In this document: in pieces, positions 24 to 20,902 of the stretch
Layout: every line of letters begins with the position of its first letter
Numbering within the stretch: position 1 is the first letter of the stretch
Origin: Baffinella frigidus
Taxonomy: Eukaryota; Cryptophyceae; Cryptomonadales; Baffinellaceae
NCBI GenBank assembly: GCA_026770585.1
Contig: MU646381.1
Coordinates: forward strand, 332,854 to 353,755
DNA: 20,902 bases
Reading direction: 5' to 3'
Made by a program: the position numbers and the translations under genes
Notes under the pieces: generated by a model
What the model saw: only the letters and a program-made list of their open reading frames with translations
Told to the model about the DNA's origin: nothing
The model's database searches: none

Positions 24-99
24 GGTTTAGGGTTTAGGGTTTGAGGTTTAGGGTTTAGGGTTTAGGGTTTAGGGTTTAGGGTTTAGGGTTTAGGGTTTA
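24..99 (+). repeat. TTTAGGG telomere-type array
   Basis: About ten tandem TTTAGGG units with one TTTGAGG variant. It directly follows the exon 4 donor of the apyrase-like gene, so it is interstitial intron sequence rather than a chromosome end. Confidence 0.9.
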
Positions 100-105
100 G
101 AGGAC

Positions 106-222
106 CTCGAGGGCCGAATACTCGGCGCCACGGCCACTTTTGTCGCCGTGGTCGATCCTCAAAGTTGACTCCGGGCCGACCTCGAGGGTGTATGACGCGG
201 CTCCCTTGTCTCCGTTGTATAC
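106..222 (-). CDS. Apyrase-like gene exon 4 (DKSGRGAEYSALE)
   Basis: The 39 codons lie between acceptor CCCCAAAG|GTATAC and probable donor CTCGAG|GTCCTC. It reads VYNGDKGAAS and later IDHGDKSGRGAEYSALE. If not spliced it would stop at TAA (97-99), formed where the telomere-like array begins, but the family continues well beyond this point, so a donor is more likely. Confidence 0.7.
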
Positions 223-3200
223 CTTTGGGGTTTGGGGTTTGGGGTTTGTGGTTTGGGGTTTGGGGTTTGGGGTGTGGGGTTTGGGGTGTGGGGTTTGGGG
301 TTTGGGGTTTAGGGTTTAGGTTCTAGGGTTGCGGGATGTTTGAAGGTCGGGGTTTAGGTGTTTTGGGGGGTTGGGGTTTAGGGTTTAAGGTTTAGGGTTC
401 AGGGTTAAGGGTTAAGGGTTAAGGGGTTGTAGACCAGGTTGGCGGTGAGGAGCTTCGAGATCCTCCTACGAACACCGTTCTCGAAACCCCCCAAACCCTT
501 AGGGTTTACGATCTAGCTCTATGGTTTTTGGTGCAGGGTTTGAGGTTTAGGGTTTAGGCGGTTAAGAGTGAATCCTAGTCCTCGGAGAGTTTCGGGATTA
601 GGGATCAGGGGTTGCGGACCAGGTTTCCGGTGAGGAGCTTCGAGATCCACCTACGAACACCGCTCTCGTCGATAATCGATGCTTCGTCCTGCTCAGGGTT
701 CGGGCTTCAGGATGAAGGGTTCAGGATGAAGGGTTCAGGATGAAGGGTTCGGGATGAAGGGTTCAGGGTTCAGGATGAAGGGTTCAGAATGAAGGGTTCA
801 GGGATTAGGGTTTAAAAGGGGAACGGACGATTCGTTAAGATGAGCCACCCTCACTCTGGTCGAACGTCGCCTAAGACCGAAACCCGCAACCGAAACCCGC
901 AACCGAAACCCGAAACTCCAGCCCGAAACCCAAACCCGAAACCCAAACCCGAAACCCACACCTGAAACCAAAACCCGAACCCGAAAACCGAAACACAAAC
1001 CCGCAACCCAAACCCACAACACAAACCCGAACCCGAAACCCGAAACCCAAACCCGAAACCCAAACTCGAAACCCAAACCCGAAACCCAACCCGAAACCCA
1101 CACCCAAAACCCAAACCCGCAACCCAAACCCGAGACCCGAAACCCAAACCCGAAACTAAGACCCGAAACTCAAATCCGAAACTCAGACCTGAAACCCAAA
1201 CCCGAAACCCAAACCCGAAACTAAAACCCGAAACTCAAATCCGAAAACCAAAGCCGAAACCCAAATCCGAACCCGAAACCCTATCCCTTATGTGGCGGCG
1301 CCACCTCAAGACGTCACCTCGTCAAAATGTCAACTTTGGCCTGTAGTAAAGATCTCAAGATTTCATCGCAGCTCGATTTTTTTAAGCAGAATCTGGAGCT
1401 GACGGCCAAATCTCGAGGATCTGCGCTTTCAGATTTGAAAAAAAATGAATTCCGGGAAATCCTCAACCTGACAATTCAAATTACTACACGTTTGTGTAGT
1501 AATTTTCATTGAAACGAAAGGCATCCAGGACTGTCTCGCCACATAAGGGAGAACCTCGTTCACGAGGTTATAGTCGATACTATCGACGCTGCGTCCTGCT
1601 CAAAAGCCCAGCAGGTATTAACCCTAATCCCTAACCCCTGATCCCTTATCCCTAATTCCTGAACCCAAATCCCTAAACCCTCGACCACCCGTGCAGCGTT
1701 TGCAGTGTTTCACGGTTTCGATGTCGGGAGTGTGCCACGTGGATCGATGCGCGTGGATGACCCGCAGAGACGACGCAGTCTTGCAAGCGAGCACGGGTTG
1801 CGGCAGGATGTTGACCTTCATCCAGGCAAACGTGTTTCTCTGGCAGAATCTGTCAACGAAAATTACTGCACAATTGGGTCATAATAGTAATTGTAAAGCA
1901 CTTGTGTAGTAATTTGCGTTCCAATCTGGTGTGCCCGGGCTCTTTCCCGCTCCAAAGTTGACGAATTTGTACCGCACACCTAGCATGTCACCTTGCGAAT
2001 AGTCTGTCAACCCGAATCAGGCGGAGCGAGGGGTTGGACCTGGTTGGCGATCGCGATGGGGAACGCCGCGCCCGGCGCGCAACGTCGCAGTTTGGTGTGT
2101 CTACCACATGACACGTCCGGGTTTCGTGTGTCTACCACACGACACGTCCGGGTTTAGTGCGTCGGGCACACGGCACGTCCGCGGAACGGCGCGGTTTGGT
2201 GTGTTGGACCTGGTCAGCGATGATGGCGATGGGGAAGGACGCGCCCTCGGCCGGCGGGGTCGCCTTGGCGTTCATCTCCGCCCACGCTCCCTGCTCCCGG
2301 GTTTGAGTTGACGGATTTGTAAATCTCTCGCCTTAACCACTCGGCCAACCGTGCAGATTGACACCAAAAGGGACATGGAGACACACCGGTCTCAAGGGGG
2401 TATATCTTCTCTCACCACAAACCCAGGGTGTGTCAACTTGAGAATAGTCGGGTCATCTCTGCCAACGCTTCTTGTGGTGCGGGTTCGGGTTTCCGGGTTC
2501 AGGATGCCACCAGCAACACGAAAAATTGTGTCTCGGGTCTGGGAGCTTCGGATATTCGTTCTGGATCACTCTATACAATACATCCCTAGTCACCATCCGC
2601 CCACGCTCCCTGTGTTTCGGGTCTCGGGTCTCGGGTCTCGGGTCTCGGGTTTCGGGGCTCTAGCTGTGCCTCACTCGGGTTGACCGAGTATTCTTAATTT
2701 GGCATGCTGGTTGTGTGGTGCAAATCCGTCAACTTTGGAGCGGGAAAGAGCCTGGTCGCACCCAGTTGTTGAGAGCAAATGCTAGATATAGACTTGAGGC
2801 GGAACCGTTAGGTTTCGGGATGAGGAGCACGGGGTTAGGGAGAGACGACCCTCTGATTGGGGGGCATGACTGGGACTGGACTCTCACCTTGTCGCGTGCG
2901 ATCTTCTCCGCGATGATCGAGTGCCCTTGCTCGAACTTGGAATCGTCAAGATATCCCCCGGCCGCTGCCGCTATCGACGCCACCATTCCGCTCACCAAGC
3001 TCCCCACCATCACGGCGGGATTCTCGTCCGCTGGCGCTGCAGCCTTCTCCGCTGGCTTCTCATCACCTGGCGCGTTGGCGCCCTGCAGAACTTCGGCCGG
3101 CACAGGCGCTTCGGGCTGCGCAGCCTGCGCGGGCTTTTCAACGGGCGGCGCCTGAGCAGGCGCCGCTTTCACCGCTTCTGGAGCGGATGCTGTCGGTGCA

Positions 3201-3283: not shown

Positions 3284-3456
3284 GTTGCACGAGGGCGGTT
3301 GGAACGTGGAACAGGCAAAAGCCGTGTAGTAAAAATCCGGCCACGTCCGGTCCCGAGGAGGTCCTTCCCCGTTCCCCCCCTGGGAGAGCGCCGGCTGGCC
3401 TGCTAGCCCCCTGGCCTCTGCGGCAAGGCTGAAGAGAGCCTCGTGTGCTGGTGAGG
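3284..3456. promoter_or_regulatory. Divergent intergenic region between the apyrase-like and WD40 genes
   Basis: These 173 bp separate two head-to-head start codons and should hold both promoters. No TATA box is evident. A GTGTAGTAAAA motif lies at about 3325-3336; the same GTGTAGTAA core recurs in introns and small elements elsewhere here, so it may be repeat-derived. Confidence 0.4.
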
Positions 3457-4533
3457 ATGCTGGCTCTCGGTCTTGACGGTGGGCGGGTGATGCTGGTGGA
3501 TGAGGCGACCGGGGAAGTGAAGTGGGAAGTGCAGGCTCACGCTGGGGGATATTCTAGAGTTACGATATCGCCGAACTACGGCAGGTTCGTGGCGAGCGTG
3601 GGAAGTGATGAGAACTGGAGGCTTTGGGACGCCGCGAGTGGTGCTGAGTGGATGGCCGGAGCCAGGCACGACGGAACAGGCGCTTGCATCTGCGGGGTGG
3701 ACGATCAGGGCCATCGATTGTTGCAGGAGGGATGCCCGGTAGTAGCGCACACTGCGGGGCTACACGCGTCAGCCTTCTCACCGTGCGGACAGAGGCTTGC
3801 CACCGGAGACAACGACGGCGCGGTGATCCTGTGGGACGCTCAGACAGGGGAGGCGGAGCAACGCATGCAGGGGGGTTCCGATCTCGTCTATTGTGTGACC
3901 TTCTCGGCGGATGGGGCGTGGCTGGCGAGCGGGAGTGGAGATGGGTCGATTCGCTTATGGGATGCGACGACGGGGGCGCTGCTTCGCGCGACACAACAAG
4001 CTGACACACGTGGCAAATTGCACTTCTCCCCAACCGACATTCTCATTCTCGCAAGCTCCAGCTATGACCTCATCACTTTGTGGGACGTCGACAGTGGCAA
4101 GATGATCAGGAGCTTCGCGGGGTGCTTCTTCGCGGTGTTTTCTCCTGACGGACGCACCATCGCAACTCCCCGTTCCGCCGATTATCGCGACCTTCTCCTG
4201 GTAAACGCTGAGACGGGAGCACTGCGGTTGAGGCTGGTTGGCCACCAGCAGCGTGCGTTGTCGGCGTGCTTCGTTGGAAGAGACGCGAACAAGCTCGCCT
4301 CGGTCTGCGGCGACGGCACCTGCAAGGTGTGGGACTCGTCGACCGGAGCGCTCCTGCGCACCATCAACGTGCCAACAAAGATCTTGTTGTCAGTGTCCTG
4401 GGGGCGCGACTGGGTGCGGGACACGGAGACGGGGGTGGCGTTCGCGATGGGGCACCACCCACGGCTCGGGGCGGAGTCACAGGTGCTGGCTCTGGACGCG
4501 GGGGTGGTTCGGATGATCCTGGACCGCGTGTGA
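3457..4533 (+). CDS. WD40-repeat (seven-bladed beta-propeller) protein, intronless
   Basis: Seen: one uninterrupted frame of 358 codons from ATG at 3457 to TGA at 4531-4533. A GTG 12 bp upstream is in frame but unlikely as a eukaryotic start. About seven repeats end in WD-type strands: VMLVD, WRLWD, VILWD, IRLWD, ITLWD, a weak LLLVN, and CKVWD. Several have the usual [SA]PDG turn and a [GT]TG after WD, and GHT-like dipeptides are partly lost. Known: such propellers are scaffolds for protein complexes and do not reveal the partner. There is no signal peptide, membrane segment or added catalytic domain. Odd: it has no intron or minisatellite, unlike its three neighbours, which could reflect arrival by retroposition or simply a different history. 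It faces the membrane-protein gene in convergent orientation. Confidence 0.88.
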   Translation: MLALGLDGGRVMLVDEATGEVKWEVQAHAGGYSRVTISPNYGRFVASVGSDENWRLWDAASGAEWMAGARHDGTGACICGVDDQGHRLLQEGCPVVAHTAGLHASAFSPCGQRLATGDNDGAVILWDAQTGEAEQRMQGGSDLVYCVTFSADGAWLASGSGDGSIRLWDATTGALLRATQQADTRGKLHFSPTDILILASSSYDLITLWDVDSGKMIRSFAGCFFAVFSPDGRTIATPRSADYRDLLLVNAETGALRLRLVGHQQRALSACFVGRDANKLASVCGDGTCKVWDSSTGALLRTINVPTKILLSVSWGRDWVRDTETGVAFAMGHHPRLGAESQVLALDAGVVRMILDRV

Positions 4534-4573
4534 TGGTCGGGAGCATAGACTACCTGCGCTCCTATTTAGCTTA

Positions 4574-4691
4574 CAGGTGTACCTCGCTCATAACCCCCCC
4601 CCCCCCCCCTAGGACCACCATAGGACCCTAGGCATTTGCCTACTGTAGGGGCCTAGGGGGGGGGCGGTTTCTTATGCGCGAGGTACCCCTG
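4574..4691. mobile_element. MITE-1 copy 1, near-perfect palindrome flanked by TA
   Basis: Ends CAGGTGTACCTCGCTCATAA and its inverted partner TTATGCGCGAGGTACCCCTG. The two arms continue inward through a C run and CCTAGGACC almost to the centre. TA lies on both sides (4572-4573, 4692-4693), as expected of a Tc1/mariner-type target duplication. Confidence 0.75.
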
Positions 4692-4699
4692 TAGGGATG

Positions 4700-4855
4700 G
4701 CGAGGGTCACAGCAATGAGAGAGTGCTAGGATTCTCGGACTGTACTCAGGTACAGGGATATGTGGAATGCAAGAACCCGTGCCCCTCTCTAGCACCACAG
4801 CCTTAGGGTCCGAGGGGTAGGCCTGCTGAATTCTCGTATGGGGGTCCTTGGATTC
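4700..4855. other. Gap between two MITE-1 copies, nothing recognised
   Basis: A unique-looking sequence 3' of the WD40 gene that presumably includes its 3' untranslated region. No gene or strong repeat is seen. Confidence 0.4.
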
Positions 4856-4861
4856 GAGCTA

Positions 4862-4980
4862 CAGGGGTACCTCGCTCCTAAGAAAGCCCCCCCCCCCTCT
4901 GGGACCACCGCAGGGCCCTAGGCATAGGCCTTCTGCAGGGTCCTAGGGGAACGCGCTTTCTTATGAGCGAGCTACCCCCG
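4862..4980. mobile_element. MITE-1 copy 2
   Basis: CAGGGGTACCTCGCTCCTAA on the left, and CTTATGAGCGAGCTACCCCC on the right. The left flank is TA; the right flank is AA, so the duplication has decayed. Confidence 0.72.
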
Positions 4981-5039
4981 AAGAGCGCTTCCCCCGAACA
5001 ACATGTGTGATATTCAGGCTCCACACACAAAAGTAAAGA

Positions 5040-5110
5040 CACTTTTGGATGGCCTTTCTACCGAACAGATTCCGGTGTCCGCCTATGTTGGGAGCTCGAA
5101 GATTCTACAG
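5040..5110 (+). repeat. R6 repeat copy (CAGTGTCCGCCTATGGTGGGAG family)
   Basis: TGGCCTTTCTACCGAACAGA then TTCCGGTGTCCGCCTATGTTGGGAG. Relatives lie at 17517, 17653, 17880 and 18270, with a reversed 3' part at 18700-18735. Confidence 0.6.
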
Positions 5111-5309
5111 GACCTAAAGGAATGACCACGCCAGCGTCACGCCACTGTACAACCGGGAAAGAGAGGGTCCTCACTGCTGGCAAAGAGAGGGTCAGCACTG
5201 CACTCTGGGGCCGCTGGAGCCTCGATTGCAAGGTTGTCTCCCTCGGAAACGTCCTTCAATTGCCACTGGGGGTGTGGGTGAATCATGCTCTTGCCCCTGG
5301 GACAACCTC

Positions 5310-5470
5310 CACAGCGGGCTACCAAGGGATTTTTTGCCGGATTTCTGACCACCTTTCCGTTAACTTGTCCGTAGGAACCCCCCTATTTCCCTACGGGTTG
5401 CGTACAGTAGGGAAGCAGGTCTTATTCTTTAAGGGTTATTCGAAATCCCTCCAAAGTCCGCTGTGTGGAG
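5310..5470 (+). repeat. R4 repeat copy (CCTATGTCCCTACGG...GGGTTATTCAAAATGG family)
   Basis: It contains GCGGGCTACCAAGGGATTTT, then GTAGGAACCCCCCTATTTCC, then GGGTTATTCGAAATCC. A 132-codon frame across it (5122-5520) lacks coding character and is not called a gene. Confidence 0.55.
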
Positions 5471-5559
5471 GGGCGCGCGTGTTCTTGGATTCGAGAAACC
5501 ACTGCATCGTGTACAGGTAGAGTGCACATGAACTCTCTCTCTAGGTCCTACTCAGACAC

Positions 5560-6348: not shown

Positions 6349-6685
6349 TAATCAGGATCGCGGTCCCCTGCTCCACATCAGGTTATCAGCTCTCCATGTC
6401 AGGTTATCAGCTCGAGGTCAGGTTATCAACTCGAGTTCAGGTTATCAGCTTGATTATTTGCGCTGGGTCTTTCTATTATTTGTACTGCGAATCGTCCACT
6501 TTTGGAGAGGACGCTTCACTTCTGAGGGGGGTAGTTGACTTTGACAGATGGACAGGCAGATTATGGATCGGGATAATCAGGATCGCGGTCCCCTGCTGCA
6601 CGTTAGGTTATCGGCTCTCCACGTCAACTTTTGGAGAGAAAGCTTCCCTTCTGTGAGGGGGAATAATTGACTTTGACAGTTCAGG
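6349..6685 (+). repeat. Tandem segmental duplication
   Basis: AATCAGGATCGCGGTCCCCTG at 6349 and 6574, and the block (GTCNACTTTTGGAGAG...TTGACTTTGACAG) at about 6490-6546 and 6618-6680, occur in the same order twice. In the first unit a four-unit TCAGGTTATCAGCTC repeat (6378-6450) has expanded. Confidence 0.65.
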
Positions 6686-6760
6686 GTTCAGGGTTCAGGG
6701 TTCAGGGTTCAGGGTTCAGGGTTCAGGGTTTCGAGTTTAGGGTTCAGGGTTCAGGGTTCA
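6678..6760 (+). repeat. TTCAGGG array
   Basis: About eleven TTCAGGG units with a few variants. Confidence 0.85.
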
Positions 6761-6913
6761 CATATAATCGCGGCGAATATTGAATAAACCGACAAGGGGG
6801 CTGAAAAGGGCAATTTGCTCACTCTGAGGGCTGGTGGGAGGGCTAGGAGAGGGTACAGAGGGCGAGACACGTGAGAGGTGGGGGAGGGGGATACGAGAGG
6901 AGGTCCAGGGTGA
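6761..6913. other. Short spacer between arrays
   Basis: GA/GG-rich sequence with no gene recognised. A scrap of the terminal exon (LTLDLL) is at 6899-6916. Confidence 0.4.
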
Positions 6914-7040
6914 GGGTTTGGGGTTTAGAGTTTAGGGTTTAGGGTTTAGGGTTTAGGGTTTAGGGTTTAGGGTTTAGGGTTTAGAGATCAGGGTTTAGGG
7001 TTTAGGATTTATAGTTTATGGTCTAGGGTTTATGGAGGGG
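6914..7040 (+). repeat. TTTAGGG array
   Basis: About eight perfect TTTAGGG units, then degenerate ones (TTTATAG, TTTATGG). Confidence 0.85.
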
Positions 7041-7042
7041 GT

Positions 7043-7084
7043 TACCAGGAGGTCCAGGGTGAGGGTGCCGAAAAAGGCGAGCAG
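7043..7084 (-). pseudogene. Terminal exon copy, 3' part only
   Basis: LLAFFGTLTLDLLV without the YGAVAS start or an acceptor. A further scrap (LTLDLL) lies at 6899-6916. Confidence 0.5.
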
Positions 7085-7248: not shown

Positions 7249-7335
7249 TTACCCGAATCCTGAGGGTGGGGGGAGTACCAGGAGGTCGAGGGTGAGGGTG
7301 CCGAAGAAAGTCAGCAGCGAGGCCACCGCGCCATA
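7249..7335 (-). CDS. Alternative terminal exon copy (YGAVASLLTFFGTLTLDLLV)
   Basis: From acceptor CCCTAAACCAG|TAT it runs 28 codons to TAA at 7249-7251. This copy gives the most family-like final helix (SLLTFFGTLTLDLLVL). A possible internal donor CTCCTG|GTACTC exists. Its upstream intron is a pure CCCTGAA array of about 200 bp. Confidence 0.5.
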   Translation of the reverse strand, partial: YGAVASLLTFFGTLTLDLLVLPPPSGFG

Positions 7336-7339
7336 CTGG

Positions 7340-7545
7340 TTTAGGGTTCAGGGTTCAGGGTTCAGGGTTCAGGATTCAGGGTTCAGGGTTCAGGGTTCAG
7401 GGTTCAGGGTTCAGGGTTCAGAGTTCAGGGTTCAGGATTCAGGGTTCAGGGTTCAGGGTTCAGGGTTCAGGATTCAGGGTTCAGGGTTCAGGGTTCAGGG
7501 TTCAGGGTTCAGGGTTCAGAGTTCAGGGATCAGGGTTTAGGGTGA
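7340..7545 (+). repeat. TTCAGGG array of about 205 bp
   Basis: About 28 units. It begins five bases beyond the acceptor of the terminal exon copy at 7335 and ends against another copy of that exon. The minus strand reads CCCTGAA, so it lies as intron. The GSGFRVQ frame on the plus strand is repeat only. Confidence 0.9.
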
Positions 7546-7719: not shown

Positions 7720-7825
7720 AGCAAGCGATTCTCAAGTTGCCATGCTGGGTGTGTGGTACACATCCGTCAACCTTGGAGCGGATAAGAGCCTGGTTTCACG
7801 AAATTGATGAGACCACCTAGACTGA
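7720..7825 (+). mobile_element. R1 element copy
   Basis: TTCTCAAGTTGCCATGCTGG, GTACACATCCGTCAACCTTG, then GAGCGGATAAGAGCC. It lies between terminal exon copies. Confidence 0.55.
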
Positions 7826-7888
7826 GTGCGAGGTGGGTCTCAGGGTGATGGTGCTGAAGAAGGTGAGCAGCGAGGCCACCGCGCCGTA
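7817..7888 (-). CDS. Alternative terminal exon copy (YGAVASLLTFFSTITL)
   Basis: From acceptor CCCTAAACCAG|TAC it runs 23 codons to TAG at 7817-7819. The acceptor context is formed directly by telomere-like repeat. It could serve as an alternative last exon of the membrane-protein gene; no transcript evidence is available. Confidence 0.45.
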   Translation of the reverse strand, partial: YGAVASLLTFFSTITLRPTSHSV

Positions 7889-7890: not shown

Positions 7891-8070
7891 GGTTTAGGGT
7901 TTAGGTTGAGGGTTGAGGGTTGGGGGTTCGGGGTGAGCAGTGCAGTGCGGCCACGCCCCGTACGCCCACCACACGCCGCATCATGAGCTAGCGTTTAGGG
8001 TTTAGGGATTGGGGATTAGGGATTTGGGATTAGGGATTAGGGATTGGGGATTAGGGTTTAGGGTTTAGGA
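7891..8070 (+). repeat. Telomere-like stretches around exon copies
   Basis: TTTAGGG/GTTGAGG units at 7891-7935 and GGGATTA/GGGGATT units at 7992-8070. The stretch 8071-8160 contains GCTAGCCACAACC near-repeats but no gene. Confidence 0.65.
7932..7962 (-). pseudogene. Terminal exon copy, degenerate
   Basis: TACGGGGCGTGGCCGCACTG resembles the YGAVASL start with several changes and lacks an open continuation. Confidence 0.4.
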
Positions 8071-8161: not shown

Positions 8162-8254
8162 TCACCTCACCACAGCCACATTGTTATCTAGCCACATGCA
8201 CACCGGCAGGATGATGGTGCAGAAGAAAGCGAGCAGTGAGGCCATGGCGCCGTA
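8162..8254 (-). CDS. Membrane-protein gene terminal exon 8, first of several alternatives
   Basis: From acceptor AAGGGCAG|TAC it reads YGAMASLLAFFCTIILPVCM plus ten residues to TGA (8162-8164). It is the first copy met downstream of exon 7. Copies at 7817-7888 and 7249-7335 are also open to a stop and give different tails, so which one is used is not decided by sequence. Confidence 0.55.
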   Translation of the reverse strand, partial: YGAMASLLAFFCTIILPVCMWLDNNVAVVR

Positions 8255-11200
8255 CTGCCCTTGTCCTGAGGCTAGAGCTCTACCCTCATCTCGAGGCGGG
8301 CGGTACCTGGTTGAGCGCAACCATCGTGACGCGGCTCCTGCCGAACATCTTCGGGTACCCCTACCCCGAGGCGGGCTGCACCCACCCCGGCTCTTTCCCT
8401 GAACCCTAGACCCTAGCCCGTAACCCCTGACACCCCAGATGTCGTGGTGGTGAATTAAATGGTTGTAGCTAGGAACCACTGGGGGTGCATCGAGACGTGT
8501 GGTTGAGGCTGGCAATGTGCTTGTAGCTGGCTAGCTATGTGGTTGCGGTACGCTATGTGGTTGTGGCTTGGTGACACACCTGGTTGAGTGCGACCATCGT
8601 GACGCGGCTCCCTCCGATGATCTTCGGGTACCTGCATCGCCCGTACACAACATCAGACCTACCTCTGTCGCAGTCTATTTGGTCTCACCAATTTGCATCC
8701 CATGGGCTCTTTTTCGAGCCAAAGTTGACGGATTTGTACCGCACACACAGCATGTTAACTTAGCAATAGGCGGTCGCGGCTCCCTCCGACGATCTTCGGG
8801 TACCTGCAATCGACACCGCATGCGTGAGTCCCAATAGAACACCCCCAAGACGAGAAAGAAAATGCACCTGACCCCAGCACCCTGCAACCTAAATCTTGTA
8901 CAAATCTGAACCCCACAAGAAAAAAAGGTGAGGCGAAAGCGAGGGGGGGGGTTACATGAAGAGGAGGAGCGGCGACATGATGAACATGATCGAGAGCGCG
9001 CATGAGATCACCTGGCGGAGGGTTGGGAATTAGGGTTTATGGTTCATGGTTGAGTGGGTTTAGGGTTTAGGGTTTCGGGTTTCGGGTTTAGGGTTCAGGG
9101 TCTAGGGTTTCGGGTTTCGGGTTTAGGGTTTAGGGTTTAGGGTTTAGGGTGTAAGGTGCAGGGTTTAGGGTTCAGGATTGTAGGGTTTATGGTTTAGGGG
9201 TTAACCTTGAGCTGCATAGACCGGGGGGAAATCGTGGAGTTGAGCAGCTTCACGTCTGCCGGCGTCGCGCCCCACATGCCCTGCGCGTTTCGCGTTTTGG
9301 GTTTTGGGTTTAGTTTTTTTTGGGTTTTGGGTTTAGGGTCTCGGGTTTCGGGTTTAGGGGTTTGGGTTTGGGTTTAGGTTTTGGGGTTAGGGGTTTGGGG
9401 TTTTGGGTTTAGGTTTTGGGGTTTGGGGTTTAGGGTTTAGGGTTTAGGGTTTTGGGGTTTGGGGTGTAGGTTTTAGGTGTAGGTGACTTGGCGGCGGCTG
9501 CCCTCCTCTACTTCCACCGAGAGTCGTGACGACCACGTGCAGGAAGAACACGTTCGCTACCGGAACGTGCGTGTAGTAAAGAGCCTTCTATTCTACAGGC
9601 ATGTGCCTGTAGTAAAGAGCCTACCACGACCTTCTAGAGTCTCCTAGAAACACTTGTGTGTAGTAAGGAGCCTTCTAGAGCCTGCTAGAATAACGTGTGT
9701 GTGTAGTAATTACCTGGCGCGGCCAGGAAGAACACGTCCACTGCGTAGGAGTGCACGTATGCTACAGGTGCGTGTGTGCAGTAAAGAGCCTTCCACAACC
9801 TTCTAGAACATTCTAGCATGGCTCTTTACTACACACAATTGATTCTAGAAGACGAGTTAGGTGACATGGCGGCGGAAGGAGAGGAGGGCGGTCGTGACGA
9901 CCACGTGCAGGAGCGCGGCCAGGAAGAACACGTCCGCCGCGTAGGGAATGCACCATCGCCAACAACCCCCATTGTAAACTTTGCACCGGGAAACACCCGG
10001 GCGGTGTGCGCAGCGGTAGAAAACCGTCCATATATCTTCCTCTTTAGATTTACGCGGGATGGGTTAAGCCACCTGGCGGCGGAAGTAGAGGAGGGCGGTC
10101 GTGACGACCACGTGGAGCAGCGCGGCCAGGAAGAACACGTTTGCTGCGTAGGAATGCACCATCGACTGTTTGGGGGTTCGGGTTTCAGAACGCGACGTTT
10201 CGCTTTTAAAAGTGCGCCGTGGTGCAAACTCCATATTGTTGCGGTTGACTGTTGGCGTGTGGTGGTGCAAATCTGGTATGTAAATGGCCAGCGTCGACTT
10301 GAGGCGGATTCCCTGTAGGAGGGCTTCGAGGAAGACGTTTTTCGCTTAGGAATGCACTATCGACTGCCACGCGAAAAGGCGAGTTGAATACGGCTTTATG
10401 CTGCCGGTTCAATACGTAATTCCTGGCCCCTTGCACGTTTTAGCGCTGTCTCACTCGGGTTGACCGACTATTCTCAAGTTGACATGCCGGGTTCGCAGTA
10501 CAAACCCGTCCACTTTGGAGCGGGAAACAGCCAGGGCTCACCAAATTGGTGAGCCCAAATAGACAGAGACTGAGCTAGAACGTGCACGGGGCCAGCACCT
10601 ACGGTCACGAGCCTAGGCCTGGGTTTCTCGTAGGAGCCCTACGGCCTACCACAGGCAACACCGTAAAACTACCCATAATTTATGCCGGCGCCCTATTAAC
10701 TTGCAAGGGGTTGGCACCTGCATGTTCATCCGGTGTAGCCGCGCCCGGATTCCACCGTTACCTCAAGTTAACGGAGGTTCCACTTTTGCTTTGAGACGTT
10801 CCACTCACGACTTTTGTATCGGTGGGCAGCGCTCTTGAGAAGCAAGAGGATTCGGAAGGATCTTAAGGGTTTTGCGTCCAGCTAAAGTATTATGCTATCT
10901 TAGGCCTTGGTTGATGATAAGATGCACCCCTACCCGTAAGATGACACAGTATTTTCCAACCGTTGCGATATCCTACGTACCTGAACCCTCGTTTTGAGGT
11001 TTTGAGAATGTCTGTTGGAAGATAGAATCCTTCCGCTCTCGGACGCAGATGCCGCGGCAGCGCTATTCCAGGGTCGTTTTTGGAGCCATTTGGTCTAAAT
11101 CGCAGTATTTTTTTTATAAAAAGGCTCCAATTACAAGGTCTCCAGTGCAAACGGAATGGTCCCACAGACAGCTTTGCGTGGCTTGGAAGGGCCACACAGC

Positions 11201-12296
11201 GGGCTACGCAGGAAAAAAATCGACACACCTAACCCATTTCCCATTACGTTATCCGTAGGACCCCCCGCGTAGGAACCCCCCCTATGTCCCTACGGATTGC
11301 CTACCGTAGGGTCCTAGGTCTGATCGCTCATGGGTTATTCAAAATGGCTTCGAAGTCCGCGTTGTGATGTTAGCCTCCTGGTTTACGGTATAGAGGATGA
11401 TTTAAATACCCGCCCCTGTGAGGGCGATTGGAACTTGATCCTCACAAATTAGGCCAACAGCTGCAATTTCTGACAAGTGGGGTGTGTGAGGTGGCACCTG
11501 CATGTTCAACCGCCTTAGATGCCGCGGCTGCCAGTTGACATACATGACCGGTTCGCGGCAGGGGTGGAGGTGGGACGAGACCAGAGAGGGAGAGAGAGAG
11601 GGAGGGAGGGAGAGAGAGAGAGAGAGCGAGAGCGAGAGAGAGAGAGAGAGAGCGAAGAGGGCTCTAGCGGCGCTTATGGGTTATGAAAAACGGCTTCGAA
11701 GTGGGGTGTGTGGTGTGGCACCTACATTTTCATCCGCCGTAGATGCCGCTCCGTAGCCCCCCTCCCTATGTCCCTACGGATTGCCTACCGTAGGGTCCTA
11801 GGTCTTATCGCGTATGGGTTATTCAAAATGGCTTCGAAGTCCTTATGGATTATTCAAAATGGCTTCGAAGTGGGTTGGCACCTGCATGTTCATCCGCCGT
11901 AGATGCCGCGGCAGCGCCAGGATCTGCGGTTATGAGCCTCGGTGTTACTGTCTTCTTTTTTATTATGTTACCCTGAGAGCCCTTTGGATCTCCGGTTATC
12001 AACCTTGAGGTTACAAACGTTTTGACGTCCCACCCGGTGGGCTACGATGGTTTCGAGACCCCTAGATTTAGCGGTAGCGTGACCAAATTTGCATTAGAAA
12101 ACAGTTAAAGTTAAACCAAACCGCCCATAGGGTTAGTTGACTTTTGATGAAAGGTCCGTAGACCACCGTGTGGGTTGGCCACGGGAAAAATGAAACAATG
12201 GTAACAGTACACGGTTTAGTGCCAGCACTGTCAACGTTTGGCAGTGTTTCATTCTTTCCCGTGGCCTAAAGATGCGGAAACCGCTCTAGGAACCTC

Positions 12297-12350
<54 letters not shown>

Positions 12351-15300
12351 AGGAACCTCCCCCGTCGATGCAAGGTTATGAACCCCTACCCCGTTTGTGG
12401 ACGAGGAAACACCTTGTTGCATGGTTGCAAACCAGACGCCCGGGAGTTGACTAGAAGTAGGACCGTGAAAAAGCCGCGAGTGACCACGCCGAGTCGCAGG
12501 TGAAAATTCCCCAACGCAACGTTTCGCTTGGAACGTGTTCCGTAGTACACCCACACACGGCCAGAAAAGGGACTATTTTAAAATCGAATTCCGAGCGTAG
12601 CCTCCGGAATATTTACGCGGCCACGTGTAGGTTCTTTGAAAAGGTGAGGTGAAGCCTCGGGTGTCCACTCGAGGCTAGAAATGGGACGATTTTAAATGTG
12701 GAGTTGTTAAATTTAGTACCAGTCACGGGCAGGCTTGGTCGCGTATCTGAGAGATTTCTGTCAGATACGTGACCAAACGCCCCTATTTGTATGGAAATTA
12801 CCACACCCCTTTCCCCCCTTCACTTGTAAAAGAATCCCTGTTTTAAAATAGTGACACTTCTGGCCTCGAGTGGGGCTGGACCTCCATGATGTCAGGTTGA
12901 AGGGGGACCACGCCCGTGACCGCCATCCCCGTCGCTGCCAGAGAGGGGGATCATCAGTGCTGCACTGCGAATCCGGATGTTTTGTAAAAGTCAACACCCC
13001 CGCAAATCTGTCAACTTTAGAAAGCTGCCAGAGAGGGGGGGCATCAGTACTTGCCTGAGAGAAGTGAAAAGACTGCTCCCTTGTAAACCGGCAGTTGTGA
13101 CTTTGTACCAGAACGTGTCCCTGTGTACCAGACTTTGTACCAGAACGTGTCCCTGTGTACCAGACTTTGTACCAGAACGGGTCGCGCCGGTGACAGCCAT
13201 CCCCGTCGCTGCCAGAGAGGGGGAGCATCAGTACTTCTGCCGGGTCATTCTCAAGTTCACGTCCTGGGGTCGCGGTACACCACGCAGGGCTGGAGGGGGG
13301 GTATTCAAAAGTCATTTTCACGGGAAAACTGTGTTCAAAAGTCAATTTTGAGCATGAAACGGCTCCAAGAACGCACGAACGGCTCCAAGAACGCACATGG
13401 AATACCCTACCCAAGAGCCTGGCGTGGAAACTCGTCAACTTCGGAGGGGGGTCGCGCCCGTGACAGCCATCCCCGTCGCTGCCAGCATGCTCGCGCGTCA
13501 GAGCCAGAACCCTACACCCCAAACCCCAAACCCTGGGAGCGTAAACCACCACGCCCCAGTCGCTGCCAGCGATGTGGCACGTGGAGTGTGGGGTGTAGGG
13601 TGTGGGGTGTGGGGTGCGGGGTGTGGGGTGCGGGGTGTGGGATTTGGGGTGTGGGGTTTGGGGTTTGCGACGTGGAGCAGCAGTGCGATGCTGAGAGAAA
13701 GAGGCCACTCGAGGTGGGTCAAGTCCTCTTTTTAAATATCCGTTGTAAACGCACGCCCAGGTTTGTACGAGGGTTGGTCACGTTCCCGCCCGCAAAGCGG
13801 GCGGCACGGCTCCAATTCGCACGGCTCCAATAACCAACAAGAATGCTTTACAAGTACAAATAGGCGATTTTAAATGGAGGAATTGATCCGCCTCGAGCGG
13901 CTGGAAGCAGGATCCTGAAAGCCCGTTAGCCCCTGGCAGAATCCCCCTTTCGTAAGGGGCTTTTCGTTCCGTTCAATCAGGGGACGAACCCCACGAAAAC
14001 CGGCGGTTAAGCCCGGGAGGTGACTACAAGCACGATCCTGAAAAGCCCGTTAAGCACCTGGGATAAGCCCGCGTAGAAGGACACGCCCGTCTTGCTATCT
14101 TAGGGGTGAGTCATGTGCTATGATACAGCTATGGCGAGGCTAAGATACGCAAATTCCACCGTTAAGATACCACAAAACGGTGTTCAAAATATAATACAAA
14201 ACGGGTTTTACCGTTTCAATTTGAATCAAATTGAATATCAAATTGAATCAAATTGAATCTGACCTGAGAGAAGGCCCGCGTAGAACGAAACGCCCGCGAG
14301 GAAGCCCTTCTGGTCGAAGGCTTTGCGCACGAGCAGCGCTGTGAAGAACAAGAACACCTGGAATGTTCGAGAAGAGTCAGCAGGGCTTCCAGAAGCTTCG
14401 AGAAGCGTCAGCATTTGTTCGAGGAGAGTCAGCTGGGCTTCGAGGACGCTCTGGAGTGTTCGAGCCTTTCTGGTCCAAGGCTTTGCGCACGATCAGCGCC
14501 GTGAACAAGAGGAACACCTGGGATTGAGTGTTTGCGAAGATCCAGCATTTGTTCAAGACGCGTGATCATGCGTTCGAGAACGCTCCCGAGTGTGAAATAA
14601 CACCCGGGGAGGACCACCAAAACCCCGAGGCTGATTCGGCCAGGCCAACCACACGGTGGTCTTCGAGGCTTTCGGGGCCCCTAGATTTAGCGGTAGTGGC
14701 CAAATTTGCATAAAAAATCCTTAAAGTCAACTGCCCACAGGGTACGTTGACTATTGATGAAAGGTCCGTAGTCCACCGTGTGGTTGGGTGAAACGTGAAG
14801 AACAGCAACACCTGCAACCGAGGGCCCAGCCCTACAGATGTTGACTAATCCGAAAACACTTTGTGCGTGAACGATGACTCAACCGGTACCAGCCGGTTGG
14901 TACCAAGAAATCCCCTCATTAGTCAACTGATAAGTCGAGGGCGTATCCGAGCGACAGGCATCGGGGGGATCCCGCTGTGGACAAGACCCACGCGACGATA
15001 GGCTGTATATCAACTTGACCTATTTCCAAAGTCAACTCGCCCACAAATCGGTCAACTTTGCGCGGATTCCGAACCAAAGTACTTTTAGTAGTGCAGAAAA
15101 AATAGAAAGACGTAGTAGATTTGATGCACAGGTCATCGTCGCGTGGACAATGGAGGGGGGCTCCTGCGAAAAACCCGGGCCTAGGAGCCCTACGGCCTAC
15201 CATAGTCAATACCGTCGTGTGTGCAGGGGTTCCTCGAAATCAAGCACACGCACAGTCCTAGGATCCTGCCGCATGCCTATGCCTAGGAGCCGAAGACCAC

Positions 15301-16959: not shown

Positions 16960-17879
16960 CCCGCCGCTAACATGAGGTGCGGCCCGGCTGCTCCTCGCGC
17001 CCCTCGCGCGCGGTTCGGCAGAGGAAGTCTCTGCTGGGTTTGGGAACTCGAGAGGCTCGACGTCCTCGTTGTTCAATACGACGCCAGCAGGGGGAACCTA
17101 TTGCAAAAGTCAATTCACCGACAATCACCCTCACTCTCAGGTCAACTTTTGGCGGAATCGACCCTTTTCGGGGATTCGGACCTCCCGTCAACTTTCGATT
17201 GACCCCATCACGTCTCAAGTGGCCCCTTCTCCACGCTTTGACTTTACTACAGAAAAAAAAGAGTGCACACCGGACATGCAATTTACTACCCGGACGTGGG
17301 ACACGAGCGTCTGTGTTTTGGGAGTCGCTGCTGCTGGCGCCAGGTGCTAAGTCAGTCCTGGCAGGCTGCGCACCGCGAGGGGCCCTCTCTCTACTCAAAC
17401 ATGCGGACGGGAAGAGGTTCAAGGCCCCTTTCAAGGAGGGAAAGTCTTCCATGGATCAATGCGCGTTATGTAACGGGAGGGGCGGGGTGGGGGTGCACCG
17501 GGCGTGATGCGATCTGAAAGGCAGCAGGGCCATCCTGCAGAACCAGTTCCAGTGTCCGCCTATGGTGGGATTTCAAAAAACCGAACGGAAGGGTTTGGGT
17601 ACGAGGAGGCGCACAGGGGACCAACATAAGCGGGGCCATTCTCGGATCCTTTCCAAGGGCGGGGTGTCCGCCTATGTTGGGAGCATCAACCCTAATGGAC
17701 CTCGAGAGGACATCTCCCACCAGGGAACCTGTTTGATCTTGAGGGAAATGCCAATTTGTTTCCAGAACATTTTTTCGCAGGGGTACCCTGATGCATGTCT
17801 GTTGCTTTGAGAGGGCGAGCTGGCGCGAAACTCGCGCGTGGTCCTCTCTGGGAGGGTGTTTTGTCAGCTCCTGGCATCC

Positions 17880-17955
17880 GAAAGGAAGCATGGCCTTTCT
17901 GCAGAACCTGTTCCAGTGTCCGCCTATGGTGGGAGTTAAAAACTTTTGGCAGCTA
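17880..17955 (+). repeat. R6 repeat copy
   Basis: GCATGGCCTTTCTGCAGAAC, CTGTTCCAGTGTCCGCCTAT, GGTGGGAGTTAAAAACTTTT. On the plus strand it can read MAFLQNLFQCPPMVGV, and the copy at 17517 reads AILQNQFQCPPMVGF. Confidence 0.6.
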
Positions 17956-18029
17956 AGAGTCCACCAACACCCTTGCATCTCATCTCCCCTACGATGGGGG
18001 ACGACGACTCGGGGGGCGGGGAGCTGGCG

Positions 18030-18175
18030 CGCGCGCGAAAGAGAGAGGAGGGAGAGGGGGCGCGCGCGGGTGGGGGTGGGGGTGGTGGTGGGGAGGGGGG
18101 GGGAGAGAGAGAGAGGGAGAGAAAGAGGGAGGGGGGGGAGGGGAGAGAGGAGAGGGAGAGGGAGAGAGAAAGAGA
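18030..18175 (+). repeat. GA/GGGGGA low-complexity tract
   Basis: Purine-only runs of GAGAGGGA and GTGGGGGT. Long frames on both strands here are artefacts of composition. Confidence 0.85.
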
Positions 18176-18386
18176 GCTCGCATCGGTGGCGAAACTTTTC
18201 CAGCTTTGGCAGCTACGAGGCCACAACGACGAGGACGGCGTCCTAGATGGGCCCGCCTCGGGCGGAGAAAAGCAGAGCCTTTCTGCAGCATACGTTCTAG
18301 TGACCGCCTGTGGTGGGAGTTAAAATAACCTACAGGACCTTCAAGAAAAACAGGCATTTAAGTCTACCTAACCACCCTCGGGCGGT

Positions 18387-18606
18387 GCGTGTTCAGAGAG
18401 AAAACGCGTGTTTATTACGCATCGAGCCCAGCATGGCCACCATGTACATGGGAACCTCGCTCATAAGAAAACGCCCCCCACATAGGACCACCGTGGGGCC
18501 CTAGGCATGGGCACAGCCCTACTGTAGGGTCCTAGGGGGGGGCGGTTTCTTGTGAGCGAGGTGCCCCTGTATCGGCGTGTTCAGAGAGAAAAGGTGTGTT
18601 TATTAC
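18387..18606 (+). repeat. 32-bp direct repeats bracketing MITE-1 copy 3
   Basis: CGTGTTCAGAGAGAAAACGC GTGTTTATTACG at about 18387-18418 recurs at 18575-18606 with two differences. Confidence 0.7.
18447..18569. mobile_element. MITE-1 copy 3
   Basis: CATGGGAACCTCGCTCATAA on the left and TTGTGAGCGAGGTGCCCCTG on the right, with TA on both sides. It lies between two 32-bp direct repeats (18387 and 18575). Confidence 0.75.
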
Positions 18607-18798
18607 GGACCGAAATCATGTATTGCCTTCCGTGAAGGCCTTGTAGGACCAGGACCCAAACGCCTGTATCCACCTAGGGTACATGGCGGCCGTGTTGGTA
18701 GTAATCCTTTAGGTCCTTGAGGTTCCTCGAGCTCCCAACATTATAGAGGCCTCGCTAACGGCTCCTACCTCTGAAGTTGACTTATGAGGTTCGTCAAC

Positions 18799-18864
18799 TT
18801 AAGGTACGTAGCGGACTTGGCGGCCGTTGAGGGACTGGAGCGGACGCGCGTTGCTCCCCTCCAC
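18799..18864 (-). CDS. Alpha-carbonic anhydrase terminal exon (NARPLQSLNGRQVR)
   Basis: This 66-nt exon runs from acceptor GAAAGCAG|GTGGAG to TAA at 18799-18801. It is the only one of three copies that keeps the full NARPLQSLNGR motif and a proper stop. Confidence 0.85.
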   Translation of the reverse strand: MEGSNARPLQSLNGRQVRYVP

Positions 18865-20798
18865 CTGCTTTCAGGTTTCGGGTTTGAGAGAGAGCTTTAT
18901 TGCTACAGGGGTCCACGCCAGGTCACAAATTCATTTTGAAGGTTGAGGCTCCCTCTTTTACAAGTGATTCCTGGTACAAATGAAACATTATTGCGCATGG
19001 CAACGGCTCAAAGGGCTAGAAATTGCTGACTTTTGGCGTGTTTCCAAAAAAGAAAATCTGATAATTAAATTTAGGCAAATTCTCACTTGTGGCCTGGCGT
19101 GGACCTCGCTCATAAGAAACCGCCCCCCCCCCAGGACCCCCATAGGGCCCTGGGCAAAGCCCTACTGTAGGGTCCTAGGGGGGGGGCGTTGAGTGACTGG
19201 AGTGCGTTGCTCCCCTCCACCTGGTTTTGGGGTCAGGGTTTCGGGTTTTGAGAGAGAGCTTTATTCTAGCTCTGCCTGACTTGGGTTGACTCATCGTTTT
19301 CACTCCAAGAGTTGACGGGTTTGCACCAAAACCCGGGGAATCGACTTCCGGTCTCGGCACATTGGCGAGCCCAAACCGTGTGGGGCAGAGCTAGTTATTG
19401 CTACCAACACGACCGCCTCATCACCGCCATGTATGGTTTGGGGTTAAGGGTTCAGAGTTTAGGGTTTAGGGTTTATGGTTTATGGTTTATGGATTATGGT
19501 TTATGGTTTATGGTTTATGGTTTATGGTTTATGGTTTATGGTTTAGGGCTTAGGGTTTAGGGTTTGGTGGAGGGGTTAAGGGTTAGGGGTTAGAGGTTGG
19601 ATGGAGGGGAAAGCGTTGCCCCCCTCCTCCTGGTTTGGGGTTTAGGGTTTAGGGCCTAGGGCTTAGGGTTTAGGGTTTACGGGTTAGGGGTTAGGGGTTA
19701 GGGTTCAGGGTGGGAGGTTGATAACCTCGCGGAGGGCGGCGAGCTGGGCCCCCGTGATCCCCAGCGGGTCCGACACCACGAACCTGTTTGGGGTTTGAGG
19801 TTCAGAGTTTGGGGCGCAGGGGCGGAGCGGTCCACCTCAGAAACGGCATGGGATAGGCCCGCCTCGGGACAGGCATGGGATGCAGGGGTTTTACTCGACA
19901 TTGAGGAGGCGCACCCCCCTAGGACGCTACAGGAACCCTATCCCTTGAGTGGCGAGTAGGCTGATATGCCCTACCGTAGGGCCCTAGGACCTGCCTAGGA
20001 CCTCTCGGGGGTCAATTTTGACCCCCTCGCCACTGAAGGGATATCTAGGGCCCTACGGTAATGCCCAGCGGGTCAGAAACTACGAACCTGTTTGGGGTTT
20101 GGGGTTTGGGGTTTAGGGTGTGGGGTTTAGGGGAGGAACGGGCGGCCTAGGGACAAATGCTGCCAGTAAAGCACAGGTAGGCATTCCACAAACCCTCAAC
20201 CCCAGACCCTAACCCCTAGCTAGACCCCTAGACCCGAGACCCTAGACTCTAGACCCTAGGCTCTAGACCCCAGACCCTAAACCATGCACACTAAACCCCT
20301 AAACCTCTAAACCCCTAAATCCTAGACCCAAAACGCACCATGCGACGCCCTCGGAGCACGGCGGGTGCGTCAGCGACCCCTGCTAGCAGAAACCTCAAAC
20401 CCCAACCCCTAAACCCCAAACCAAGTAGGAGCGGAGGTGGGGGGGCGAGCTTTCAGCTCTGGCACAAAACATGGCAATATTCGTTTTAGATGGGATTGTA
20501 AAGCCATCTGTTGCAAATTTTGTACGGCGTCGCGTCCACATAATTCATCCAACGTAGGCGTTCGGCATAACAGGAACGCACGGGGTAGGCTAAGAAGGCC
20601 TGGGTTGGGCCACAGCCTCGGCGGGAGTGAACACACGGCGGCAGTGTAGGTAGTAATCAACGTCTCTCTCTCTGGGACATGCCCGCCTCGGGACAGACAG
20701 GCCCGCCTCAGGAAAGACATGGGATGGGCCCGAGTTGGGTTGGAGGACAAAACGCACCATGCGACGCCCTCGGAGCACGGTGGGTGCGTCAGCGACCC
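18799..20798 (-). CDS. Alpha-carbonic anhydrase, last three exons (5' part off the right edge)
   Basis: Seen: exons 20758-20798, 19726-19783 and 18799-18864 join in phase (2, then 0). They give GSLTHPPCSEGVAW, FVVSDPLGITGAQLAALRE and VEGSNARPLQSLNGRQVR, then YVP and TAA. Known: this is the C-terminal signature of alpha-class carbonic anhydrases (reversible CO2 hydration). The Thr of GSLT corresponds to Thr199 of human CA II, and the following His replaces Thr200, as in CA I. NARPLQxLNGR is the usual plant and algal C-terminus. The zinc-binding histidines lie in exons outside the window. Location in the cell cannot be judged without the N-terminus. Every exon has at least one extra copy, and introns consist of TTTGGGG/TTTAGGG-type arrays plus small elements. 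Family assignment is firm; which copies are spliced is inferred. Confidence 0.88.
19102..19187. mobile_element. MITE-1 copy 4, truncated, inside a carbonic anhydrase exon copy
   Basis: It retains ACCTCGCTCATAAGAAACCG, the central CCTAGG palindrome and part of the right arm, then stops at GGCG|TTGAGTGACTGG, where the duplicated terminal exon begins. Confidence 0.7.
19188..19220 (-). pseudogene. Terminal exon copy cut by a small palindromic element
   Basis: Acceptor AAACCAG|GTGGAGGGGAGCAACGC reads VEGSNALQSLNA, with two codons of NARPLQ lost. It then runs directly into a truncated copy of the CAGGGGTACCTCGC element. Confidence 0.65.
19267..19393 (+). mobile_element. R1 element copy with clear terminal inverted repeats
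   Basis: CTAGCTCTGCCTGACTTGGG on the left, GGGGCAGAGCTAG on the right. The core is diverged (GGGTTGACTCATCG...GTTGACGGGTTTGCACC). Confidence 0.65.
19434..19570 (+). repeat. TTTAGGG/TTTATGG array
   Basis: TTTATGG is the main unit between 19470 and 19540, flanked by TTTAGGG. It is a locally expanded telomere variant. Confidence 0.85.
19590..19629 (-). pseudogene. Terminal exon copy, degenerate
   Basis: Acceptor AAACCAG|GAGGAGGGGGGCAACGC reads EEGGNA, then diverges into telomere-like repeat. Confidence 0.55.
19632..19715 (+). repeat. TTTAGGG/GGGGTTA array
   Basis: It fills the intron between the DPLGIT exon donor and the first terminal-exon copy. Confidence 0.8.
19726..19783 (-). CDS. Alpha-carbonic anhydrase exon with DPLGITGAQLAALRE
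   Basis: This 58-nt exon lies between acceptor CCCCAAACAG|GTTCGT and donor CGCGAG|GTTATC, starting with the third base of Trp. Confidence 0.85.
19941..20041. mobile_element. 101-bp inverted-repeat element with TCCCTTGAGTGGCGAG ends
   Basis: Left end 19941-19956 and right end 20026-20041, one mismatch. Inside are CCTAGG and GGGGGTCAATTTTGACCCCC palindromes. The ends share TCCCTTNNGTGGCG with 1284-1550. Confidence 0.65.
20060..20087 (-). pseudogene. Truncated copy of the DPLGIT exon
   Basis: Acceptor CAAACAG|GTTCGTAGTT leads to FVVSDPLGIT. It is then replaced by the palindromic sequence of the 19941-20041 element region. Confidence 0.65.
20090..20130 (+). repeat. GGGGTTT array
   Basis: It begins three bases from the acceptor of the truncated DPLGIT exon copy. 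Confidence 0.75.
20190..20425 (-). repeat. C-rich arrays around the second GSLTHPP exon copy
   Basis: ACCCTAGACCC and CTAAACCCC units at 20190-20330, and CCCCAAACC/CCCCTAAA at 20395-20425. C-rich on the plus strand, reversed relative to neighbouring arrays. Confidence 0.75.
20339..20379 (-). pseudogene. Second intact copy of the GSLTHPPCSEGVA exon
   Basis: It differs from 20758-20798 by about one base and keeps acceptor GCTAGCAG and donor CATG|GTGCG. The minisatellite on both sides is C-rich on the plus strand, opposite to every other exon flank here. It would be skipped or used as an alternative exon. Confidence 0.7.
20430..20757. other. Intron sequence, R7 copy and CCGAGGCGGGC repeats
   Basis: R7 at 20609-20672 (CACAGCCTCGGCGGGAGTGA...GTAGTAATCAACGTCTCTCT), then two GCCCGCCTCGGGACAG units. 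No exon was found. Confidence 0.5.
20758..20798 (-). CDS. Alpha-carbonic anhydrase exon with GSLTHPPCSEGVAW
   Basis: This 41-nt exon lies between acceptor CGCTAACAG|GGGTCG and donor GCATG|GTGCG. The split Trp codon TG|G is completed by the next exon. The upstream intron is a pure CCCCAAA array on the coding strand, reaching the window end. Confidence 0.82.
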
Positions 20799-20807
20799 CT
20801 GTTAGCG

Positions 20808-20902
20808 GTTTGGGGTTTGGGGTTTGGGGTTTGGGGTTTGGGGTTTTGGGTTTGGGGTTTGGGGTTTGGGGTTTGGGGTTTGGGGTTTGGGGTTTGGGGT
20901 TT
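20808..20902 (+). repeat. TTTGGGG array reaching the window end
   Basis: About 13 units, starting about eight bases from a carbonic anhydrase acceptor. It is part of an intron, since the gene's 5' exons must lie further right. Confidence 0.9.

Follow-up and report, generated by a model that had tools for sequence, protein, structure and literature searches.

Telomere-like minisatellite arrays and partial exon copies in introns of the cryptophyte Baffinella frigidus

The arrangement that we describe here from the nuclear genome of Baffinella frigidus resembles in part three known phenomena: interstitial telomeric repeats, introners and intron gain by tandem duplication. The stretch analyzed (20,902 bases, 55.8% GC; hereafter the window) lies on contig C79 of an assembly of 382,457,362 bases in 1,364 contigs. 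Judged by comparison with related proteins, arrays of telomere-like heptamers occupy introns of unrelated genes in it, mostly with the C-rich strand in the RNA sense, and truncated copies of the neighboring exons lie beside them. We consider it probable, on balance, that telomere-like minisatellites spread and expand within GT-AG introns, together with local duplications that span splice sites, and that they are tolerated where the RNA is C-rich.

The published excerpts on interstitial telomeric sequences (PMC2246262, PMC6410037) describe internal tandem units of telomere type, some with a flanking duplication, and insertion of telomere repeats at mammalian double-strand breaks is likewise accompanied by flanking duplications in some cases (PMC2246262). 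By comparison, the present 382 Mb assembly holds 104,837 exact double-unit sites, the arrays are strand-biased in introns and lie near acceptors, and the units are heptamers, many of them degenerate. In intron gain by tandem duplication, as outlined in the excerpted accounts, a duplicated intron-exon segment likewise provides the splice sites and leaves exon copies, whereas the copies here are mostly truncated, number several per exon and stand beside telomere-like arrays. Introners, in the excerpts of PMC9860276 and of PMC7789003 on Amoebophrya, likewise make many introns of one genome from a repeated sequence; the array introns placed here differ in being built on a minisatellite unit and in varying in length, ends and units, and by eye they show no terminal inverted repeats. 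Telo boxes in plant genes are also telomere motifs within genes, first introns included; in the excerpt and table of PMC3022908 they are short motifs, enriched in 5' untranslated regions and slightly under expectation in introns, unlike the long intronic arrays at splice sites found here.

Cryptophyte nuclear genomes reach hundreds of Mb and in some cases are more than half repeats, and the introns of Guillardia theta average 106 nt (PMC12747079, PMC12220804, PMC6260743, in excerpt); the same excerpts are silent on introns of telomere-like sequence and on exon fragments. Searches of the open-licence literature, a scope that leaves most subscription papers outside, brought up no paper recognized as describing introns composed of telomere-like repeats with a strand rule and fossil exon starts.

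Arrays within introns of the window

Two minus-strand genes place the arrays. One encodes the C-terminal part of an alpha-carbonic anhydrase, whose joined exons match PF00194 (E = 4e-12) and relatives in the PDB; joining ..GCATG|GTGCGT to GTTCGTGG.. yields A-W-F-V-V-S-D-P, and the PF00194 score rose from 43 bits with a rough join to 46.7 bits with the corrected one. The other encodes a Frag1/DRAM/Sfk1-type membrane protein (33.8 bits for the joined peptide against PF10277, cut-off 30.3). Its relative P0001 (131 residues, from a 1,004-base contig) runs unbroken through five segments that are separated in the window, four of them placed by tblastn and the fifth (VISC) by eye, and spans the junctions MQLK|VISC and NQ|YGAV, both of which flank arrays. 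P0002 is likewise continuous through the upstream Frag1-type exons (tblastn). The window donors read GTGCGT, GTTATC, GTCAGA, GTGGCT, GTTAAC, GTAACC and GTGTGT and the acceptors CAG, at junctions picked with GT and AG in mind.

Since the relatives' proteins run on across the junctions, which is indirect evidence of removal from mRNA, the arrays are taken as intronic, and the comparison places them in GT-AG introns of several unrelated genes. Translation of the arrays, or their origin as assembly artefacts, is scarcely credible: open frames do pass through some arrays, but the relatives' proteins skip them and the pattern recurs over contigs. A few introns are array almost from donor to acceptor, in agreement with the first-pass annotation of this DNA, which had read the arrays as intron sequence. 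Its further proposal of a separate intron class was not supported, as within one gene there is a gradation from array introns to introns carrying other repeats or none. An apparent gene end (M*) near 8956 was rejected and is read as a donor because P0001 continues beyond it. The features, from the upstream end of the minus-strand genes, are as follows.

20758..20798, minus strand: carbonic anhydrase exon GSLTHPPCSEGVAW; array 20807-20902 before the acceptor; PF00194 match for the joined peptide
20339..20379, minus strand: second full copy of the 20758..20798 exon, 98% over 50 bp; coding-strand G-rich repeat upstream, 20390-20422
20060..20087, minus strand: truncated upstream copy of the FVVSD exon, with its own CAG and array 20090-20132
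19726..19783, minus strand: carbonic anhydrase exon FVVSDPLGITGAQLAALRE; array 19787-19814 before the acceptor
19634..19715, minus strand: telomere-like array between the FVVSD exon and the truncated copy at 19629
19600..19629, minus strand: truncated copy EEGGNAF, running directly into an array that extends to about 19435
18799..18864, minus strand: probable last carbonic anhydrase exon VEGSNARPLQSLNGRQVRYVP with TAA, the stop read by eye; truncated copy at 19220
14264..14357, minus strand: Frag1-type exon VFLFFTALLVRKAFDQKG..LLS, without array; truncated upstream copy at 14517
12882..12934, minus strand: Frag1-type exon ATGMAVTGVVPLQPDIME, without array; truncated upstream copies near 13211, 13481 and 13567
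10073..10165, minus strand: Frag1-type exon SMVHSYAANVFFLAALLHVVVTTALLYFRRQ; short C-rich stretch CCCGAACCCCCAAACAG at the acceptor; copies at 10366, 9962, 9765 and 9572
9206..9280, minus strand: Frag1-type exon GMWGATPADVKLLNSTISPRSMQLK; upstream array 9287-9483
9012..9205, minus strand: 194-nt intron GTTAACCC..TCCGCCAG, about two thirds recognized array units; P0001 continues across it (by eye)
8956..9011, minus strand: Frag1-type exon VISCALSIMFIMSPLLLFM; donor AT|GTAACC, no stop; matched to P0001 by eye
8580..8631, minus strand: Frag1-type exon YPKIIGGSRVTMVALNQ, without array; copies at 8803 (upstream, acceptor kept) and 8359 (downstream, donor kept)
7338..7543, minus strand: CCCTGAA array ending CCCTAAACCAG at acceptor 7335 and starting inside a truncated exon copy (7540)
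7279..7335, minus strand: Frag1-type exon YGAVASLLTFFGTLTLDLL; truncated copies upstream at 8254, 7888 and 7571, downstream at 7084
603..688, minus strand: possible exon of a gene with no Pfam family; CAG acceptor after array 695-812; partial copy 432-484
224..428, minus strand: CCCCAAA array preceding a possible exon at 222 (AAAG acceptor; no homology support)

Tandem Repeats Finder reported period-7 arrays at 24-100, 224-428, 6679-6760, 6913-7032, 7338-7543, 7891-7934 and 7995-8069, among others, and further ones at 9030-9203, 9294-9478, 19435-19711, 20090-20132 and 20807-20902, with longer periods at 695-812. Exact CCC[CT][AG]AA units number 130 on the minus strand and 14 on the plus strand. 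When the 40 nt preceding each acceptor were scored for telomere-like C-rich sequence, six of 10 homology-placed acceptors reached at least 12, against 10.3% of random minus-strand positions (binomial 1.7e-4; placements partly corrected, with an error of as much as 3 nt remaining for the ATGMAV exon and its copies). With exact units only, four of the 10 acceptors were positive, a number that 288 of 20,802 circular shifts also reached, some acceptors being placed 1-3 nt off. A score of at least 14 stood upstream of 10 of the 312 minus-strand CAGs, and all 10 are listed acceptors of exons or exon copies (nine with homology, one in the gene without Pfam family); this result is not blind, because the acceptor list was partly seeded by examples from the first-pass annotation. 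The corresponding figure for plus-strand CAGs was 5 of 358.

The nine places quoted in that annotation for arrays on the coding strand near acceptors read as described or nearly so, and they differ in what they represent. Those at 7335, 9011, 19783 and 20798 belong to exons that are complete by homology, the last with a near-identical second copy at 20379; those at 7888, 19629 and 20087 belong to truncated exon copies, which had passed unnoticed. The remaining two, 222 and 688, fall in the gene without assigned identity, and 222 reads AAAG rather than CAG.

Strand of the arrays inside and beyond the window

The pattern extends far outside the window. All ten exon matches to the chaperonin family CCT (PF00118) in the genome were taken with their flanks, and by eye five of the ten acceptors carry telomere-like or related C-rich repeats, some of them weak or drifted (the CCT4 introns have no exact unit); the G-rich orientation was seen before none of the ten exons. 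The gene on C94 is TCP1-alpha, since its joined exons align to 6nr8_A gap-free at both junctions (E = 2e-54); one of its introns contains CCTCAAA-type units and another CCCTACA-type units. A gene on the sampled stretch L039 has two consecutive introns of 198 and 297 nt, of which 79% and 92% are recognized units; its protein gave no Pfam family above cut-off and no homologue was found.

For kinesin (PF00225), the sample comprised the 27 of 45 genome matches whose open frame is at most 170 residues and which do not start at profile position 1. In the 80 nt upstream of the acceptors, 9 of 27 were C-rich and 1 of 27 G-rich, compared with 7.3% C-rich among random 80-nt windows (binomial 8e-5); at threshold 14 the counts were 8 and 0 of 27 over a background of 6.7%. 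In four of the 27, neither CAG nor TAG lay close to the start of the match, and that start itself served as the scoring point. Donor flanks were C-rich in 5 of 20 and G-rich in 1 of 20 (L090), the 20 being those of the 27 that remain after omission of the copy C506:56113 and six others. Across the assembly, exact CCCTAAACCCTAAA occurs 53,650 and 51,187 times on the two strands, and its reversed control 97 and 99 times.

Exact units were then counted in 15 placed introns or pieces (eight from the window, five from CCT genes and two from L039; the copies at 20798, 8631 and 7335 were assumed to be used, and some intron ends were cut 1-4 nt off). The count was 121 sense and 9 antisense, with a sense majority in 11, an antisense majority in none and a tie in four; five of the nine antisense units lie in the first carbonic anhydrase intron, beside the second exon copy. 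Outside recognized units, the window introns are near balance (C-G skew 0.047). An annotation-free test on the boundaries of 37 sample arrays (69 kb) gave a modest result: CAGG stood just past the C-strand end in 11 and past the G-strand end in 3 (Fisher 0.035). The earlier claim that the C-rich strand is the RNA strand thus stands for most units, in unrelated genes inside and outside the window, and fails at 20379, L090 and L071.

Two other kinds of array were noted in the window. Plus-strand GA arrays at 11583-11652 and 12297-12350, CT-rich in sense, lie within one Frag1-type intron and show a strand preference like that of the telomere-like arrays. A long array with a 13-base unit (ACCCAAACCCGAA) at 876-1281, outside placed introns, has its C-rich strand on the plus strand.

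Several observations weigh against our preferred reading. The array is absent at acceptors 14357, about 12935 and 8631 and weak (10.5) at 18864, so that four of 10 window acceptors fall below a score of 12; five of 10 CCT acceptors and 18 of 27 kinesin acceptors also lack arrays. Among the nine C-rich kinesin cases, L057 is weak and two are related heptamers, (CCTGAAG)n in L062, with no nearby AG, and (GCTGAAC)n in L076. The strand has exceptions: the exon copy at 20379 is preceded by a G-rich stretch on the coding strand, the kinesin exon match in L090 (G000:C657:15792-15905) is followed by coding-strand G-rich telomere-like repeats, and the G-rich kinesin acceptor, L071, is that of a stop-containing exon copy. 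Four CCT and both L039 introns are C-rich in sense outside recognized units (skew 0.25 to 0.66), so the bias there is not confined to those units; this remainder may be drifted array or a wider bias. In the boundary test CAGG also occurred 8 times at 40-62 nt further and plain CAG 17, 12 and 14 times, and among the 18 arrays of the window CAGG gave 5 against 4, with C and G sides not separated. The idea that every acceptor carries an array was dropped, many placed acceptors having none.

In a neutral alternative, minisatellites expand and duplicate in long introns and the strand bias stems from mutation or transcription asymmetry rather than from selection on splicing. Arrays do grade into other repeats, many introns have none, and CT-rich runs are also mainly sense in one window intron (3 versus 1). 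We nevertheless consider it rather doubtful, as all 10 window cases scoring at least 14 end near an AG, a non-blind count that neutrality alone does not predict.

A positively chosen splicing signal, the C-rich repeat acting as pyrimidine tract and source of branch points, appears quite unlikely. The first-pass annotation had suggested such a role, and several introns have nothing but array before the AG. The support is nevertheless weak: CTRAY, a consensus that may not be that of the host, occurs at -60..-10 in 6 of the 15 introns, AAA blocks interrupt the tract, and many acceptors, if spliced at all, function array-free.

Partial exon copies and intron growth

Eight of the 10 placed window exons have extra copies in neighboring introns, about 30-100 bp long and mostly 80-98% alike; for the GMWG and VISC exons, the window comparison revealed no further copies. 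The 41-nt carbonic anhydrase exon occurs at 20798 and 20379 (98% over 50 bp), and the YGAV exon (7335) has partial copies at 8254, 7888, 7571 and 7084. Such partial copies include segments that span a splice site and comprise either array, CAG and exon start or exon end, donor and array. In all, 24 partial copies from the window, CCT and L039 were classified by hand, with the complete copy chosen by homology. The acceptor is kept in 15 of the 16 that lie upstream of the complete exon, and among the eight downstream the donor is kept in five, doubtful in one, and in two neither site is kept.

Similar copies occur in other genes. Upstream of three of the 10 CCT exons lie exon starts, each with a CAG of its own, and one exon has a downstream exon end, as seen in short flanks only. 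In L039, an exon end with its donor and the array start is tandemly repeated. Kinesin matches on C506 and C112 are each accompanied by a second, stop-containing match over an overlapping profile range, and exon parts are repeated in P0003 and P0004, short proteins from metagenome contigs. Exon fragments pass directly into an array at 7540, at 19600 and at position 924 of L052. Local direct repeats are frequent in other sampled stretches as well, where exons were not identified. Within the window, five copies of a segment able to encode ADTGTGSAERP-like residues (5045-5090, 17516-17575, 17640-17680, 17880-17935 and 18264-18320) may represent an upstream exon belonging to the Frag1-type gene; one of the copies, however, is over 12 kb away.

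Tandem duplication across a splice site yields upstream fragments with an acceptor, downstream fragments with a donor and one complete exon, and an array sitting at the acceptor is duplicated along with it. The layout of fragments and arrays therefore probably reflects promotion of local duplications by the minisatellites. Selection could shape the layout too, since a copy that retained both splice sites would count as an additional exon. In the mechanism we propose, heptamer minisatellites (CCCTAAA, CCCCAAA, CCCTGAA and drifted forms) would have spread and expanded inside GT-AG introns. Replication through the arrays would slip or switch template, duplicating tens to hundreds of bases over an exon edge; selection would retain one complete exon while the partial copies became fossil exons and the intron grew. 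Arrays giving G-rich RNA would be selected against because they disturb splicing or transcription, leaving the strand bias. We infer template switching and selection as causes from this layout. The arrangement suggests that introns are still being enlarged, and may even be created, by the repeats together with small local duplications. A stronger version, in which this minisatellite family is a main intron-building material genome-wide, its arrays originate or spread at exon edges, are tolerated chiefly with C-rich RNA and drive duplication of acceptor and exon start, and introns form and grow in a ratchet that leaves fossil exon starts, we advance as a tentative proposal, held at less than even confidence.

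The introns may instead have been gained, through arrays inserted during break repair in or near exons, with the broken exon sequence duplicated and the insert spliced as a new intron. Intron B of TCP1-alpha (L052) opens with GTCATTCCCAAC (1211-1222), a near-copy of GTGATCCCGAAG (1518-1529) at the start of the next exon; the two 12-base sequences have four differences, every one at a third codon position. The direct passage of exon fragments into arrays and the excerpted account of mammalian telomere-repeat insertion at breaks, some with duplications (PMC2246262), also fit. Yet clear direct repeats were seen by eye in one intron only, and the arrays are degenerate rather than fresh, which makes this origin unlikely as a general account. 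Intron gain is possible, and the single TCP1-alpha case, without an empty site, is no proof. Formation of the introns by a transposon-like introner family is very improbable: the same unit is common to many introns, but their length and ends are not fixed, and inspection by eye of the placed intron ends showed no terminal inverted repeats.

Expansion of minisatellites within introns, the reading we prefer, would bear on a long-standing question, how introns originate and grow, for which recent cases that can still be read are scarce. Several unrelated genes here retain such traces: the repeat is defined, the strand rule is broken in few places, and the partial exon copies record duplications. 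Should strains or relatives prove to differ, they would allow direct tracking of the gain and growth of introns. The arrangement also raises a question for splicing, as the spliceosome must bypass several CAG-plus-exon-start decoys before the real exon, and a caution for gene finders, as truncated copies resemble exons.

Neighboring genes and other repeats

On the plus strand, an open frame at 3433-4533 encodes a WD40 protein; its relative P0052 (Baffinella frigidus) has 64% identity, among the 120 relatives listed. A possible third minus-strand gene at about 100-690 had no Pfam family in the Pfam search of window frames. Rfam and tRNA scans of the window returned no matches, and the search for DNA relatives of P0001 in viral_contigs found none. 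Searches with array-plus-CAG patterns returned 0, 2 and 14 loci (two IMG/VR contigs and 14 records titled bacteria), among which, by context, no eukaryote relative was recognized. The records titled bacteria (L003-L016, for example L005 and L014) also contain telomere-like heptamer arrays followed by CAG, and that of Pedobacter suwonensis has many CCCTAAA units. In the random genome sample (stretches L025-L044), 142,577 of 200,000 bases (71%) are N, in long runs.

Three further kinds of dispersed repeat occur in the window. Elements at 4577-4694, 4859-4978, 18445-18571 and 19099-19190 have inverted ends (CCTCGCTCATAAGAAA..TTTCTTATGAGCGAGG) around C- and G-runs and resemble small terminal-inverted-repeat elements; by eye, one more lies in L039 at about 4320-4455. 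Repeats of a second kind, related to one another and containing many CCTACGGTAGG-type palindromes, are found in both orientations at 5310-5468, 11268-11366, 11750-11842, 15506-15606 and 15970-16073, and similar sequence was seen by eye in L026, L039 and L050. A repeat of about 70-130 bp, also in both orientations, is dispersed at 1921-2022, 2661-2794, 7728-7840, 8655-8775 and 10441-10578, and sequence that looks related to it by eye lies downstream of two kinesin exons (L086, L098).

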